Positions 41,570 through 47,394 of a stretch of DNA of 64,000 nucleotides are shown here, one piece after another. The translations under genes were made by a program, and so were the position numbers. The notes under the pieces are model-generated. The model searched no databases, was not told the origin of the DNA, and saw nothing but the letters and a program-made list of their open reading frames with translations. Location of the stretch: positions 62,001-126,000 of the forward strand of contig OOHK01000002.1 in assembly GCA_900315845.1 (NCBI GenBank). The letters are read 5' to 3'. This DNA comes from Candidatus Avelusimicrobium luingense. Its GTDB lineage: Bacteria > Elusimicrobiota > Elusimicrobia > Elusimicrobiales > Elusimicrobiaceae. Every line of letters starts with the position of its first letter. The stretch's first letter is position 1.

Positions 41570-42904
41570 TCATATGTTGATTTTGTTAAATTTCATTTTC
41601 CACCGTTGCCATGTTTTTTTGAGATATCTTTTTATTCTTCTATCCCAACGCAACGCGGAAATATCCGTAATGCACAATACAGGTATTTTATAATCGGGCC
41701 CGTACTTTTTGAGTAACCAACAACACCGATGTTGTCCGTCTTGCAACACATAATCTTCCCCCCTGACAACGGGCATATATGTTTCATCATATCCGTTTTG
41801 CAAGGAATGAATTAACTTCTTAAAACGTGTTTCAGACATACAAATCCCCGATATTCTTTCATTTTCCGCACAATATTCATTATAGACGGTGCTATTTCCT
41901 TCCAGGTATTGATAGGCGTGCGTATCTTGCAAATGTAATATTTGCCCTTGCCACTCCCGCTTGATTTCCCGTAATGCCAGATGTTTAATTTCATACACAA
42001 TCCGTCCACCTTCCAACCATTTATAAAAAAATTCATAATCTATATGCACACGCGGATCATCCAACAAACGTAACGCCGTGTATTTTTGATACCGTTTTAA
42101 TTGACGTGAATATAAAGGGTGCGGTGTGGGTTGCCCATAGAGAGAATATCCCAGCGGCTCTATAAAAGCGCATATCATACGCTCCAAAGCATGCGCCAAC
42201 GAAAACCCTTCCCCGCGCTTAGTAGGGGTAAAATCGGTCATATGCACAGGCCAAGTCTTTACTTGTTCCAGCAAAGCGGCTTTCATAGCAAAACAAGTAC
42301 CCGCTACAAAATGATAGTTCTGCGTTATAGGGATATGCAACCGTTGTGCATAAGCTGCGGTAAAAGTTTGTTTATGCTTAGGATCTTGGATAATTAAATT
42401 TTTGGCCGCCACCAGCCCCGTAGTAGGATGCGTACAAAGTCGGTTAATAGTCCGGTGAACAGAAAAACCGCCTAAAATACCGTCATAAAGATTGGTAAAC
42501 CAATCTTTTTTCTTGAAAATTTGATTATATATATAGATAAATTTACGCGTCGTCCCTTTGGTATGCAGTTTATACACAATATCATACCGTAACAAATCTT
42601 GTTTAGAAATAACTTCTAAAAAAGGCGCAATATCCCACCCTTTATTTGCGCAAGCGAAAAACTGCGTATCTGGTTTGAATTGCTTGATTTGAGCCAAAAT
42701 TTTTTCATTAGATTGTTGGGGAATATAAGTAATAATTAAATCATACTTATAAGGGCGAAGATTTCGTAAATACTTTTGAATAGTTGGCCAACTATCCATA
42801 TAATACAAATGCAGTACAACTAAAATTTTACAAGAATAGTTTTTTGCAATTTCCTTTCTGTAATACCATCGTCCGGCGAGATACTCCCAATAATTATTAG
42901 ACAT
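41570..42904 (-). CDS. RgpF-like glycan protein with ParB/Srx-like C-terminal segment
   Basis: A 444-residue cytoplasmic protein. Residues about 25-290 follow the rhamnan synthesis F pattern (ILVVLHLYYMDSW, ANKGWDIAPFLEVI, YKLHTKGT, HFVAGTCFAMKAALL), a group of putative cell-surface glycan transferases. The C-terminal part has GEDYVLQDGQHRCCWLLKKYG (about 391-411), like ParB/sulfiredoxin nucleotide-binding folds. Codon use looks more AT-rich than in neighbours. The ATG sits right behind a hairpin that holds its AAGGAG. The two-part reading is by motif only. Confidence 0.65.
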   Translation of the reverse strand: MSNNYWEYLAGRWYYRKEIAKNYSCKILVVLHLYYMDSWPTIQKYLRNLRPYKYDLIITYIPQQSNEKILAQIKQFKPDTQFFACANKGWDIAPFLEVISKQDLLRYDIVYKLHTKGTTRKFIYIYNQIFKKKDWFTNLYDGILGGFSVHRTINRLCTHPTTGLVAAKNLIIQDPKHKQTFTAAYAQRLHIPITQNYHFVAGTCFAMKAALLEQVKTWPVHMTDFTPTKRGEGFSLAHALERMICAFIEPLGYSLYGQPTPHPLYSRQLKRYQKYTALRLLDDPRVHIDYEFFYKWLEGGRIVYEIKHLALREIKREWQGQILHLQDTHAYQYLEGNSTVYNEYCAENERISGICMSETRFKKLIHSLQNGYDETYMPVVRGEDYVLQDGQHRCCWLLKKYGPDYKIPVLCITDISALRWDRRIKRYLKKTWQRWKMKFNKINI

Positions 42905-42944
42905 AATAGACGCTCCTTATAATTCGCTGATAAGGATGTCTATT
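42905..42944 (-). promoter_or_regulatory. Hairpin masking the ribosome binding site of 41570-42904
   Basis: AATAGAC/GTCTATT and TCCTTAT/ATAAGGA pair around a nine-base loop (with a 2 against 1 base bulge). The AAGGAG ahead of the ATG is inside the stem. Confidence 0.65.
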
Positions 42945-43000
42945 AAAAAACGGCTGCTATACATGAGCCAAGCGAACGGTTCTCAATGTATAACAGCCGT
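42945..43000 (-). terminator. Terminator at the end of the candidate leader RNA
   Basis: Minus strand ACGGCTG (42994-43000) pairs with CAGCCGT (42950-42956); inner arms TATACATTGAG and CTCATGTATA; T run at 42945-42950. Confidence 0.8.
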
Positions 43001-43176
43001 AGTCTGCCGTTTATATAAACGGCAGACATTCGGCATGGAAGACAGGCTCATGACTTCCTGTCTTTCATACCTTTGAATCGGCTGTTTTTTGGAGTTCGCT
43101 TGGCCTTTTAGTCCACCGGTAGGTTTTCTAAAAGCAACCCCGTATTCTACATACGGTTCCAAAAACAGTAAATTAT
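42945..43176 (-). ncRNA. Candidate structured leader RNA/attenuator
   Basis: About 230 bases on the minus strand, driven by a promoter at 43183-43212, with no credible ORF. Hairpins include CCGTAT/ATACGG near 43141-43157, CTTTTAG/CTAAAAG near 43105-43134, AAGACAGG/CCTGTCTT (43039-43064) and a perfect 26-base palindrome (43002-43027). It ends in a terminator with arms ACGGCTG/CAGCCGT and TATACAT-GAG/CTCATGTATA, then six T. Earlier segments are complementary to the terminator arm and loop. It does not look like tmRNA, RNase P or SRP RNA. 5' end inferred. Confidence 0.55.
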
Positions 43177-43182
43177 GCGTAT

Positions 43183-43212
43183 AGTATAGCAATTAACAGA
43201 TTTTTTGCTCAA
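43183..43212 (-). promoter_or_regulatory. Promoter of the candidate leader RNA
   Basis: TTGAGC (43207-43212), 18-base spacer ending TGC, TATACT (43183-43188), minus strand. Confidence 0.55.
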
Positions 43213-43231
43213 GAAAAGTTATAATACTTGT

Positions 43232-43567
43232 ATGAACTGTATATTTTGCGGCATTGCCGACGGCTCTGTAAAAAGCCAACTGATTTACGAAGATGAGGAC
43301 GTGGTGGCATTTAAGGACTTAAACCCGCAAGCCCCCACCCATCTTTTAATTATCCCGCGCAAGCATATTGCGCGCTTGTCGGAAGCGGACGAAAAAGACG
43401 TCCTTTTGCTAGGTAAAATCTTGCTCGTAGCGCAAAAATTAGCCCGAAAATTTGACTTAAAAGACTTCCGGCTGATTACCAATAACGGCAAAGGGGCCGG
43501 ACAAAGTGTGGATCACTTACACTTTCATCTCATGGCCGGACGCCGTTTCTTGTGGCCGGCAGGCTAA
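43232..43567 (+). CDS. HIT-family nucleotide-binding hydrolase
   Basis: A 111-residue HIT protein. The N-terminal CIFCGIADG and the catalytic HLHFHLMAG triad (about 95-103), plus family length, mark the HINT group that hydrolyses AMP-linked substrates. The ATG at 43232 is chosen because TATAAT (43220-43225) ends six bases before it and no Shine-Dalgarno is present; a start nine codons earlier would overlap the promoter. Confidence 0.92.
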   Translation: MNCIFCGIADGSVKSQLIYEDEDVVAFKDLNPQAPTHLLIIPRKHIARLSEADEKDVLLLGKILLVAQKLARKFDLKDFRLITNNGKGAGQSVDHLHFHLMAGRRFLWPAG

Positions 43568-43880: not shown

Positions 43881-43932
43881 TTGTTTGCTCTAGTCAGCCG
43901 CATTTTTGATACCGAAAAAACGGATTTGTTGC

Positions 43933-45672
43933 GTGAATAATAACATCATAGAACAAATTAAAGACCGGTTGGACATTGTAGAATTTATCCGCCAATATGT
44001 ACCTAGTCTGAAACGTGCGGGTAAAACCTACAAAGCCTGCTGTCCGTTTCATCAGGAAAAAACCCCTTCGTTCACGTGCAGTAGCGAAAAGGGGCTCTTT
44101 TACTGTTTCGGTTGTCAGGCCGGGGGCGATATTTTTGAGTTTTTAATGCGTATTGAAAATATCCCGTTTAACGAAGCGGCCGAAAAACTTGCCCAACTAG
44201 CCGGCGTAGAATATAAGCCCAAACGAGATACCTTCTCCGCAGAAGAACAACGACGGGCGAGTGCACATAAAGTATTAGATTTTGCCAAAACGTTCTATCA
44301 TAAAAATTTATTAGCGGCCAATGGCGCATACGCGCGCGCGTATGTCAAAGAGCGCAATTTAACCAAAGAAACGTGTGTGAAATTTGAATTGGGATTAGCA
44401 TTTCAAGATAACACACAACTGGCTCGGGCCGCCCAAAAAGCAGGATACAGTGCGGCCGACTTAAAAGAAGCGGGCCTTTGCATGCAAACCGATTACGGCT
44501 TGCGCGATTATTTTAGAAACCGCTTGATGTTTCCCATCATCAATCACCGCGGTGATACGGTGGGGTTTGGCGGACGTATTTTAGGCGAAGGCGAACCGAA
44601 ATATCTTAATTCGCCCGAAACGATTTTATTTACAAAATCACACGTTTTGTACGGATTGAATTTTGCGGGGCCTGCCATTCGTCAAGCGGGCCGGGCGGTA
44701 CTTTTAGAAGGCTATATGGACGTTATCGGCACGCACCAAGCAGGTGTCAATTATACCGTTGCCCCGCTGGGTACCAGTTTAACCGAAGAACATGCGCGTT
44801 TATTAAAACGCTATACGGAAAACGTTATTTTGCTCTTTGACCCGGATGCGGCCGGAATAAAAGCCGCCTTGCGCGGTTCGCTCGTACTTATCAGCCGCGG
44901 GCTATTTGTAAAAATTGCCACGTTGCCGGACGGGTTAGACCCCGATGAATATATCGCCGCCAACGGCAAAGAAGCGTTTGAACAGATTTTGGATAAAGCG
45001 GAAGATGTTATCGCGTTTTACACACGCGAATTAATGAAAAAATGTGCGATGCCGTTAAGTGCACAAGATAAAACGCATTTGGTAACGGAACTTGCCGAAG
45101 TTATCACCCAACAGCCAGATGCTATCGTCCGGCGCGAATGGGCCAAATATGTAGCCGAGCATATCGGCGTAGATGAAAACCTGGTTTTGGCGCGGTTGCA
45201 ACGGCCGGGCGCATTAAAAACAAGGCAAGTGGGTACACCGGTAGTATCTCCCGTATCGGCCACCAACAGTGCCGAAGAAGAACTGCTGTCGTGGTTACTC
45301 CGTGCGCCGGAACAAATAGAATTATGTGCCGAACTTACGGCAGACGATTTTTCCACGCCGGGTAGTTTTCACCTGTTTCAAGCCGTACGTAAAGCGGCTC
45401 AAACAGGAGCAAACGAAAAGGAGTTAGTGGAACAAGTAAAAGCGGAAGTACCGTCGTTGGCGCAAGAAATTATCAAACTGGCGATGTTGCAAATTCCGCC
45501 GGATTTTCAGCCGCAACGCGATATTAAAACGTGTGTGGCCCGGGTAAAACAAAACGGCGTGCAAAAACGCCTAAAAGAAGTACAACAAAAGATGAAATCG
45601 CTGGGGGCAGGGAATGTGCCGCCGGAACTCATCCAAGAGTATATGTCGTTACAAACGAAATTAAAAAAGTAG
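43933..45672 (+). CDS. dnaG: DNA primase
   Basis: A primase of about 579 residues that makes RNA primers at the replication fork. The N-terminal zinc ribbon is C-x2-H...C-x2-C (CCPFHQEKTPSF, YCFGC), followed by FLMRIENIPFNEAAEKLA, the RNA polymerase core with FRNRLMFPI and GFGGRIL, Toprim motifs LLEGYMDVI and LLFDPDAAG, and a helical C-terminal helicase-binding region. The start is uncertain: GTG at 43933 is chosen from the conserved N-terminus; a TTG nine codons upstream is possible. Neither has a strong ribosome site. Confidence 0.94.
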   Translation: MNNNIIEQIKDRLDIVEFIRQYVPSLKRAGKTYKACCPFHQEKTPSFTCSSEKGLFYCFGCQAGGDIFEFLMRIENIPFNEAAEKLAQLAGVEYKPKRDTFSAEEQRRASAHKVLDFAKTFYHKNLLAANGAYARAYVKERNLTKETCVKFELGLAFQDNTQLARAAQKAGYSAADLKEAGLCMQTDYGLRDYFRNRLMFPIINHRGDTVGFGGRILGEGEPKYLNSPETILFTKSHVLYGLNFAGPAIRQAGRAVLLEGYMDVIGTHQAGVNYTVAPLGTSLTEEHARLLKRYTENVILLFDPDAAGIKAALRGSLVLISRGLFVKIATLPDGLDPDEYIAANGKEAFEQILDKAEDVIAFYTRELMKKCAMPLSAQDKTHLVTELAEVITQQPDAIVRREWAKYVAEHIGVDENLVLARLQRPGALKTRQVGTPVVSPVSATNSAEEELLSWLLRAPEQIELCAELTADDFSTPGSFHLFQAVRKAAQTGANEKELVEQVKAEVPSLAQEIIKLAMLQIPPDFQPQRDIKTCVARVKQNGVQKRLKEVQQKMKSLGAGNVPPELIQEYMSLQTKLKK

Positions 45673-45684
45673 TTGAGGGAAATT

Positions 45685-47394
45685 ATGGCATCAGGAAATA
45701 AATCACTAAAAGATTTGTTACAAGAAGGAAAAGAAAGCGGCTTTGTAGCCTTAGAGGACCTAAACCGTTCTATTGAAGGCGCGGATATGAGTGCCGAAGA
45801 CGTCAACGGTATCATGGACACGATTGACGATTTGGGCATACAACTGGTAGAACAAAAAAAATTAAAATCTAATTCCGCCCCGGAAAAAGAAACCCTCAGT
45901 GAAGATTGGTCATCCACGCCGGATATTTCTAACTCTATCCGGATGTACCTGTCGGAAATGGGCCGTGTACCCTTGCTTACCCGCGACGAAGAAATTACCT
46001 TAGCCCGCAACATCCGCGAGCGCGAAAAAGAATTGCGCAAACTCGTGTTAGAGTCCCCTATTACGATGCGCGAAATTTGCAACTGGGAAGAATTGGTGGA
46101 CCAAGAGGAAATGACCACCAAAGAACTGATGCCCCGCGGAAAACGTACCACCCGCGAACTGACCAACATGCGCCGCAAACTCAAAGAAGCGGCCAACTTC
46201 ATCGGCAAACGCGAGCAGGAAATTACCAAACTGATGCGGGAAATTCGCGAAGGGAATTTATCCGATAAGCGCCGCAACAATGCCATTGAAAAAATGGAAG
46301 CCAAACAAAAAGAAGTCGTGGCGTGTATTACCAAACTCAATTTGAATCAAAACAAAATCAAACGTTTAACTAATAAAATTAAGAATTTAGCCGACCGCTT
46401 GCGCGAAACGTCCAACGACATGCAACGCTTTGATGATTATTTCGGGCCGTATGCACAAGTCAAAAAATTAGTGAACGATTTGAAAAACAAAAAAATTACC
46501 GAGCGTGAATTCAAAAAGAAAACCAAATTCACCTTGCCGGAATTAGAACGGGCGCTTACAAATATTGACGACGTCCGCCGCCGCCATAACCAAATGGTGG
46601 ATATGTTACCCATGTCGGAAAAAGAATTTTTGGCTTTTAATGACCGTATCATATTTTTTGAAGATATGATTTTACAAGACAAATTAAAACTCATTAAAGC
46701 CAACTTGCGTTTGGTGGTATCTATCGCTAAAAAGCACGTCAATTCCAATTTGGAACTATCAGACTTAATTCAAGAAGGTGGTCTTGGCCTTATGAAAGCG
46801 GTAGAAAAATTTGAATACAAACGCGGTTTTAAGTTTTCCACGTATGCCACTTGGTGGATTCGCCAAAGCATCAACCGCGCCATTGCCGATCAAGCCAACA
46901 CCATTCGTATCCCGGTGCACATGAAAGAATTAGTTTCCAAACTGACTAAAGTAACTAACAAATTCCGGCAAGAGCACGGGCGCGAACCCACGTTGGAAGA
47001 TTATTCAAAGGCGTTGCGCTTATCCATAGAAAAAGTGAAAAGCGTACTGAAAATCATGCAAGACCCGATTTCGCTTTCTACCCCTATCGGAGAAGACGAA
47101 GACTCCAACTTAGAGGACTTTATTGAAGATAAGAACGGGCCGGATCCGACAAACGCCGCAGCGGACTTTTTACGTAAACAAGAAGTCGCCGACGTATTGG
47201 CCACCTTATCGGAGCGGGAATCTAAAATCATCAGTTTGCGTTTTGGTATTGATTCCGGCTATCCGCGCACGTTAGAAGAAGTAGGAAAAATGTTTAACGT
47301 TACGCGCGAACGTGTGCGTCAGATTGAGGCCAAGGCCATTCGCAAACTGCGCCACCCCAGCCGCACCAAAATGCTCAAAGATTATAACGAGTAG
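45685..47394 (+). CDS. rpoD: Primary RNA polymerase sigma factor (sigma 70)
   Basis: A 569-residue sigma factor. Region 1.2 is [23 protein letters not shown]; a long charged non-conserved region follows; region 2 has [36 protein letters not shown], region 3 [11 protein letters not shown], and region 4.2 [20 protein letters not shown]. The ATG at 45685 follows GAGGG and lies 12 bases after the dnaG stop. Region 2.4/4.2 motifs fit recognition of TTGACA/TATAAT promoters like those seen here. Confidence 0.97.

Follow-up and report, generated by a model that had tools for sequence, protein, structure and literature searches.

A structured leader RNA ahead of an RgpF-like gene is one copy of an undescribed, heavily multiplied RNA family of gut Elusimicrobiota with the layout of a transcription attenuator

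We analyzed a 64,000-nucleotide stretch (the window) of contig OOHK01000002.1 from Candidatus Avelusimicrobium luingense, in which a leader read on the minus strand (approximately 43176-42945) lies ahead of a gene for an RgpF-like protein. A first-pass annotation, made from the sequence alone, had proposed a possible new riboswitch or attenuator at this site. Its landmarks hold. The promoter TTGAGC-N18-TATACT is present at 43212-43183 on the minus strand, and its match to consensus puts the expected transcription start near 43176. The stretch of about 230 bases described as lacking an open reading frame holds no plausible gene, the only frame between promoter and terminator being a mechanical 69-aa one with a TTG start. 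The three segments said to complement the terminator are found at 43086-43079 (AACAGCCG), 43103-43094 (CCAAGCGAAC) and 43052-43045 (CATGAGCC), the perfect 26-base palindrome at 43027-43002, and the terminator stem (42999-42951) is followed by a T-run (42950-42945) ahead of the ATG at 42904. Folding energy of the leader RNA is -94.8 kcal/mol, compared with -55.2 +/- 4.4 for shuffled sequences (z -8.95). In transcript order, with two-sided changes counted in alignments of 26 and of 61 further copies described below, the features are:

43183-43212, minus strand: predicted promoter (consensus match only), -35 TTGAGC at 43212-43207, 18-nt spacer, -10 TATACT at 43188-43183
43158-43168, minus strand: 5' strand of helix P1, CUGUUUUUGGA, nearly invariant in the family (helix counted in both alignments)
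43140-43156, minus strand: hairpin P2, two-sided changes in 5/6 pairs (26 copies) and 6/6 (61 further copies)
43105-43134, minus strand: hairpin P3, two-sided changes in 8/8 pairs in both alignments
43094-43103, minus strand: 5' strand of the pseudoknot, CCAAGCGAAC, partner of the terminator loop at 42977-42968
43082-43093, minus strand: 3' strand of P1, UCCAAAAAACAG, which with CCG at 43081-43079 is also the antiterminator strand (from the alignments, the alternative pairing and folds of truncated transcripts)
43079-43086, minus strand: antiterminator strand AACAGCCG, alternative partner of the terminator 5' arm at 42999-42992 (CGGCTGTT)
43032-43071, minus strand: hairpin P4, two-sided changes in 15/15 pairs in both alignments
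43047-43056, minus strand: apical loop of P4, AAGUCAUGAG, with self-complementary UCAUGA at 43053-43048, predicted site of a kissing-loop homodimer
43002-43027, minus strand: hairpin P5 (the 26-nt palindrome), two-sided changes in 10/12 pairs (26 copies)
42951-42999, minus strand: P6, intrinsic terminator stem, whose loop carries the 3' strand of the pseudoknot, GUUCGCUUGG, at 42977-42968
42945-42950, minus strand: T-run of the terminator
42913-42918, minus strand: AAGGAG, Shine-Dalgarno sequence of the downstream gene (from the sequence)
41570-42904, minus strand: gene putatively under control of the leader, encoding an RgpF-like protein (rhamnan synthesis F domain, Pfam PF05045, E 2.8e-20), 444 aa, ATG at 42904

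The window leader belongs to an undescribed, structured RNA family of gut Elusimicrobiota bacteria. Of 101 related genomes searched at the DNA level, 46 gave matches, and each of these is a member of the window's genus. A covariance model (R1) built from 26 aligned copies, with the structure written by hand, detects the RNA in 62/66 genomes of this genus and in 84 of 295 genomes of the phylum; these counts are lower bounds, few candidates having been scored per genome. All 84 genomes fall in two families (f1 and f15), with no match in the other families sampled among the 295. A strict-pattern scan of 84,980 species' genomes, the only scan to reach beyond the phylum, matched just two records, titled Elusimicrobium sp. 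and Elusimicrobiales. Copy number ranges from 1 to about 145 per RNA-carrying genome: at E <= 1, R1 finds about 145 copies within the 1.7-Mb genome G060 and 82 in G040; the window's genome holds 5, and two f15 genomes hold 25 and 22. The annotation had assigned the leader to no riboswitch class, and the covariance models of Rfam 15 at gathering score (T-box, GEMM, HMP-PP and the rest) bear it out. They left the leader unmatched and gave only tRNAs over the whole window and 20 relatives, which rules out a known Rfam class there; sub-threshold matches to the window leader are chance. No earlier description of the RNA was found in the literature searched, which mostly excluded subscription papers.

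The shared architecture is simple to state: P1 encloses P2, P3 and the 5' pseudoknot strand, and is followed by P4, P5 and the terminator hairpin P6. A covariance-model search of homologous leaders had been suggested as the check on the proposed fold, and it yielded strong covariation in support. Across the 26 copies, 89.8% of cells are paired compared with 76.3% after shuffling, two-sided changes are seen at 52 of the 75 pairs, and pairing drops below 48% when partners are slid by one to three columns. The 61 further copies, aligned by fitting to R1, give 92.4% against 77.4% shuffled, with changes on both sides in 50 of 66 pairs. The predicted crossing pair between CCAAGCGAAC and the terminator loop is a real pseudoknot; 8/8 pairs covary, and when tested free of any alignment, at least 9 contiguous pairs can form in 189/203 copies, compared with 4/203 cross-RNA controls. 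The 26-base palindrome is an ordinary covarying hairpin (P5). Covariation extends to single positions, as the third base of J4/5 follows the first base of J5/6 (G-C in 119, A-U in 71 and G-U in 7 of 203 copies). The 5' strand of P1 is nearly invariant (first 12 nt identical in 156/203 copies) although its partner tolerates G-U changes, and ACAAUUUA, upstream of P1, is conserved across the family. In a subset of leaders, among them L015, L025, L036 and L066, ACAAUUUA is preceded by a GGAG resembling a Shine-Dalgarno sequence and by a short hairpin, AUAAGCCUUAAACGUGGCUUAU, with no conserved start codon.

P6 is an intrinsic terminator by the usual marks, a G+C-rich stem and a U-run upstream of the coding start. 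Its CGGCUG/CAGCCG core is nearly invariant, the outer stem is paired in 98.4-99.6% of cells, and 196/203 copies have at least 5 T within 8 nt after the stem. As the T-run lies a median of 43 nt ahead of the start codon (10-90% range 36-80), expression of the downstream gene probably needs read-through of the terminator; the interval is too short for a separate promoter. The 5' arm of this terminator has a second possible partner. CGGCUG is also complementary to the P1 3' strand taken together with the three bases that follow it (CAG-YCG), in an arrangement mutually exclusive with the terminator and already anticipated for AACAGCCG and CGGCTGTT. This alternative is conserved: all 6 core pairs can form in 161/200 copies and at least 5 in 191/200, and the YCG part is not required for P1. 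For transcripts that end short of the terminator 3' arm, the minimum free energy structure contains this alternative helix in 117/138 copies, the window copy included. L072 and L198 carry matching G-to-A / C-to-U changes in P1 and P6, and a change in the P1 3' strand of L153 is matched in P6 at the cost of one P1 pair. Others (L053, L062, L063 and some f15 copies) break that antiterminator pair, so support is good, not uniform. Attenuation through a translated leader peptide was ruled out, with no conserved short leader open reading frame among 202 upstream regions; an SD-like sequence occurs in 72 of the 202 (46 when shuffled), and just 18 regions have a start codon following it.

The apical loop of P4 behaves differently from the rest of the RNA, in that its sequence changes often yet remains self-complementary in 195/203 copies. 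A palindrome of at least 6 nt is present in 141/203 loops (shuffled mean 13, maximum 25); 47 have a 4-nt palindrome, 7 have GACG and 8 have none. Counted by distinct loop, palindromes of at least 6 nt occur in 28/52 (mean 2.8 and maximum 9 in 2000 shuffles), with the caveat that distinct loops within one class are not independent and that the 4-nt class alone is weaker evidence. The palindromes include UAAUUA, UUAUAA, UCAUGA, UUCGAA, UUGCAA, CUCGAG, UAGCUA, CUAUAG and CUGCAG, and a rough tree of 202 copies, built without the loop, puts the number of class changes at about 102, through which self-complementarity is kept. P5 loops have no 6-nt palindromes and are mostly 4-6 nt long, hence a weak control. 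The commonest layout of the P4 loop, two bases, a hexamer and one base, is that of the dimer initiation site (DIS) of HIV-1. Kissing loops with six-nucleotide palindromes are known from HIV-1, and GACG, the commonest non-palindromic P4 loop, also forms the self-complementary kissing loops of the Moloney murine leukaemia and sarcoma viruses (MoMuLV/MoMuSV; PMC7357161). P4 resembles these retroviral sites in its self-complementary 6-nt core (or GACG) and few unpaired flanking bases; it differs in lying in bacterial leader RNAs, in having many loop classes per genome, often A-U rich, and in that its dimerization is predicted only. The persistence of self-complementarity while the sequence changes suggests that leaders homodimerize through P4 kissing loops, which we regard as the most economical reading of the palindromes. 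The annotation had also placed a second crossing pair between CATGAGCC and GGCTCATG in the terminator loop. This part did not survive, as the P4 tip of a given RNA is no more complementary to its own terminator loop than to those of other RNAs; the CATGAGCC segment is the P4 tip, in which the conserved property is self-complementarity. The larger claim, a leader of attenuator type with competing terminator and antiterminator folds and a pseudoknot, stands.

Downstream of the leader, a same-strand open reading frame preceded by a Shine-Dalgarno sequence is present in 196/203 copies, and several of the remaining 7 are weak antisense matches or lie at contig ends. In some relatives the leader stands ahead of anything from dozens to more than 100 pilin genes. 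In the two copy-rich genomes nearly all of the frames examined encode pilins, a strict pilin pattern being found in 79/83 cases in G060 and 34/38 in G040, with two more in G060 that are pilins carrying a variant FTLIEIL motif. Outside G060 and G040, leaders precede surface-sugar, lipoprotein and restriction genes. The non-pilin products include RgpF-like, GT2, GT8, GT9 and DUF4422 proteins, a polysaccharide pyruvyl transferase and a polysaccharide-biosynthesis epimerase, as well as sulfatase-domain proteins, a beta-barrel outer-membrane protein, a type III restriction methylase, GmrSD and SNF2/PLD helicases. Genes resembling restriction or defence functions (type III methylase, GmrSD, SNF2 and PLD helicases, N6/N4 methylase) follow several copies, namely L103 and L108 (both G046), L003 (G000, the window's genome), L029 (G049) and L086 (G186). 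Loop class and gene type also seem to be associated, UUAUAA and UUCGAA lying mostly ahead of pilins and UCAUGA and GAUC more often ahead of other genes, uncorrected for relatedness.

Pilin genes are abundant in every sampled genome of the genus (40 to at least 150 per genome), and counts of type IV pilin-like (N_methyl) genes reach at least 150 for G060, 125 for the window's genome, 113 for G040 and 106 for G046. In the window's genome, 18/18 sampled pilin regions gave no match to the model and look like short plain leaders, so a divergent version of the leader before its own pilins was rejected for this sample. The RNA is thus a module placed on pilins in some species and on a few accessory genes in others. 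On the plus strand of the window, a dnaG primase gene followed by an rpoD-like sigma factor gene occupies 43906-47394, adjoined by a divergent gene for a HIT protein at 43205-43567.

Sequence comparison establishes the fold with its pseudoknot, the conserved alternative pairing, the placement ahead of genes and the conserved self-complementarity of the loop. That the leader belongs to a new family of transcription attenuators is well supported. Regulated termination and the assignment of ON and OFF states go a step further, and here we infer. In the OFF state P1 and the P6 terminator would form, the pseudoknot would pin the P6 loop to the strand beside P1, and RNA polymerase would halt at the T-run without reaching the gene. 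In the ON state, capture of the terminator 5' arm by the P1 3' strand with CCG would let polymerase read through. In about one third of leaders, such as L032, L023, L146 and L215, the P1 3' strand recurs a third time (CCAAAAACAG, its changes again G-U tolerant) immediately ahead of the Shine-Dalgarno sequence (at least 8/10 matches in 62/187 copies, compared with 4 when shuffled); in the ON state this strand might pair with the released P1 5' strand. Leaders with the same P4 loop should be able to dimerize by a kissing interaction, the likeliest role of which would be to make the switch responsive to free leader RNA, whether transcribed from that gene or from a sister gene. Taken as a whole, a cis-acting attenuator of a new Elusimicrobiota RNA family, with a terminator/antiterminator switch biased by P4 kissing, is the best explanation and, in our judgement, a likely one. 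Three observations weigh against it. At least one core antiterminator pair is broken in about 20% of copies. Many P4 palindromes are A-U only (UAAUUA, UUAUAA) and the kissing helix by itself may be weak, because in HIV-1 dimer sites function poorly once they contain more than one A-U pair (PMC5874298). Finally, base pairing alone does not account for the near-invariant P1 5' strand and the upstream ACAAUUUA, which hints at another binding partner.

What the switch would sense is a separate matter, and two rivals compatible with an attenuator compete only over this signal. The first is a ligand-binding riboswitch in which P1-P3 and the pseudoknot form a small-molecule aptamer, for a cyclic dinucleotide for example, with the P4 loop serving as a structural module. 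Cyclic dinucleotides act at some pilus genes elsewhere, and the riboswitches for cyclic di-GMP (c-di-GMP) and cyclic GMP-AMP (cGAMP), the GEMM class, are RNA leaders able to control pilus and surface genes. The classic terminator/antiterminator platform, the surface and pilin genes downstream and the GGDEF proteins in every genome tested fit this proposal, as do the cGAMP riboswitches described in Geobacter (PMC8835794). Our leader is comparable to GEMM riboswitches as an RNA that may control such genes (PMC8835794), but it has no sequence or structure match to them in Rfam. Few unpaired bases are invariant enough for a binding pocket, the conserved block being mainly one P1 strand; the pseudoknot sequence is free to change, and no Rfam family matches. 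GGDEF genes are equally present in genomes that gave no match for the RNA (G028, G005 and G010) and do not track the RNA, and c-di-GMP was rejected as an obvious ligand. On balance a ligand-binding aptamer seems doubtful. We give similarly tentative standing to a protein-responsive leader, in which an RNA-binding protein or elongation factor would read the invariant 5' element (ACAAUUUA-CUGUUUUUGG) and choose between P1/terminator and antiterminator. Such a reader would explain a P1 5' strand kept near-invariant against a G-U-tolerant partner, together with the conserved ACAAUUUA; however, the third strand near the Shine-Dalgarno sequence offers a simple alternative reason for that invariance, and no candidate protein was found, none having been sought by genome comparison.

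Two further explanations dispense with regulation of the adjacent gene. That the promoter and terminator frame a stand-alone small RNA of about 230 nt, by chance upstream of genes with promoters of their own, is very unlikely, as the gap from T-run to start codon already contains the Shine-Dalgarno sequence and a same-strand downstream frame is nearly universal. A mobile or selfish repeat carrying its own promoter and terminator, with no regulatory function, would suit the uneven copy number (0 to about 145), the patchy distribution and the leaderless sampled pilin genes of the window's genome, but it is largely contradicted and likewise very unlikely, given a fixed position and orientation ahead of start codons, an absence from viral contigs, phages and plasmids that also argues against an origin there, and copies so diverged in our sample (mean identity 69%, best pair 85%, covarying structure kept) that recent transposition is unlikely and near-identical recent copies were not seen.

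The proposed attenuation by P1, P6 and the pseudoknot, with a P4 bias, has partial parallels among known systems. Like attenuators and transcriptional riboswitches with intrinsic terminators, the leader sits in the 5' untranslated region and combines such a terminator with a mutually exclusive antiterminator strand; unlike them, its terminator loop is locked by a long covarying pseudoknot, it has a kissing-type palindromic loop, it reaches about 145 copies in one genome, and it has no known ligand and no Rfam family. The HMP-PP (thiS motif) riboswitch likewise places a terminator hairpin within the sensing fold and may contain a pseudoknot, but it is compact and its terminator-loop sequence is conserved (PMC6478431), whereas our leader spans about 220 nt and its loop varies freely while pairing is kept. 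Kissing loops in a bacterial regulatory RNA are also found in the guanidine-II riboswitch, where pairing is proposed between two ACGR loops within a single molecule (PMC7357161); with one such loop per RNA, pairing in the leader would be intermolecular.

If the attenuator reading is right, few cis-regulatory RNA families known to us are multiplied as heavily in any bacterial genome (about 145 matches in 1.7 Mb), and the management of more than 100 pilin genes by gut Elusimicrobiota would be seen in a new light. The family would also provide a natural example of leader RNAs that regulate through self-pairing loops whose codes are interchangeable. A bolder extension, which we consider improbable, is a cell-wide trans network in which at least 100 pilin and surface-gene leaders would regulate one another: those with a palindromic loop code in common, out of about ten such codes, would dimerize and so set terminator read-through. 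Were it true, the RNA itself would help to select the genes expressed from a huge surface repertoire.
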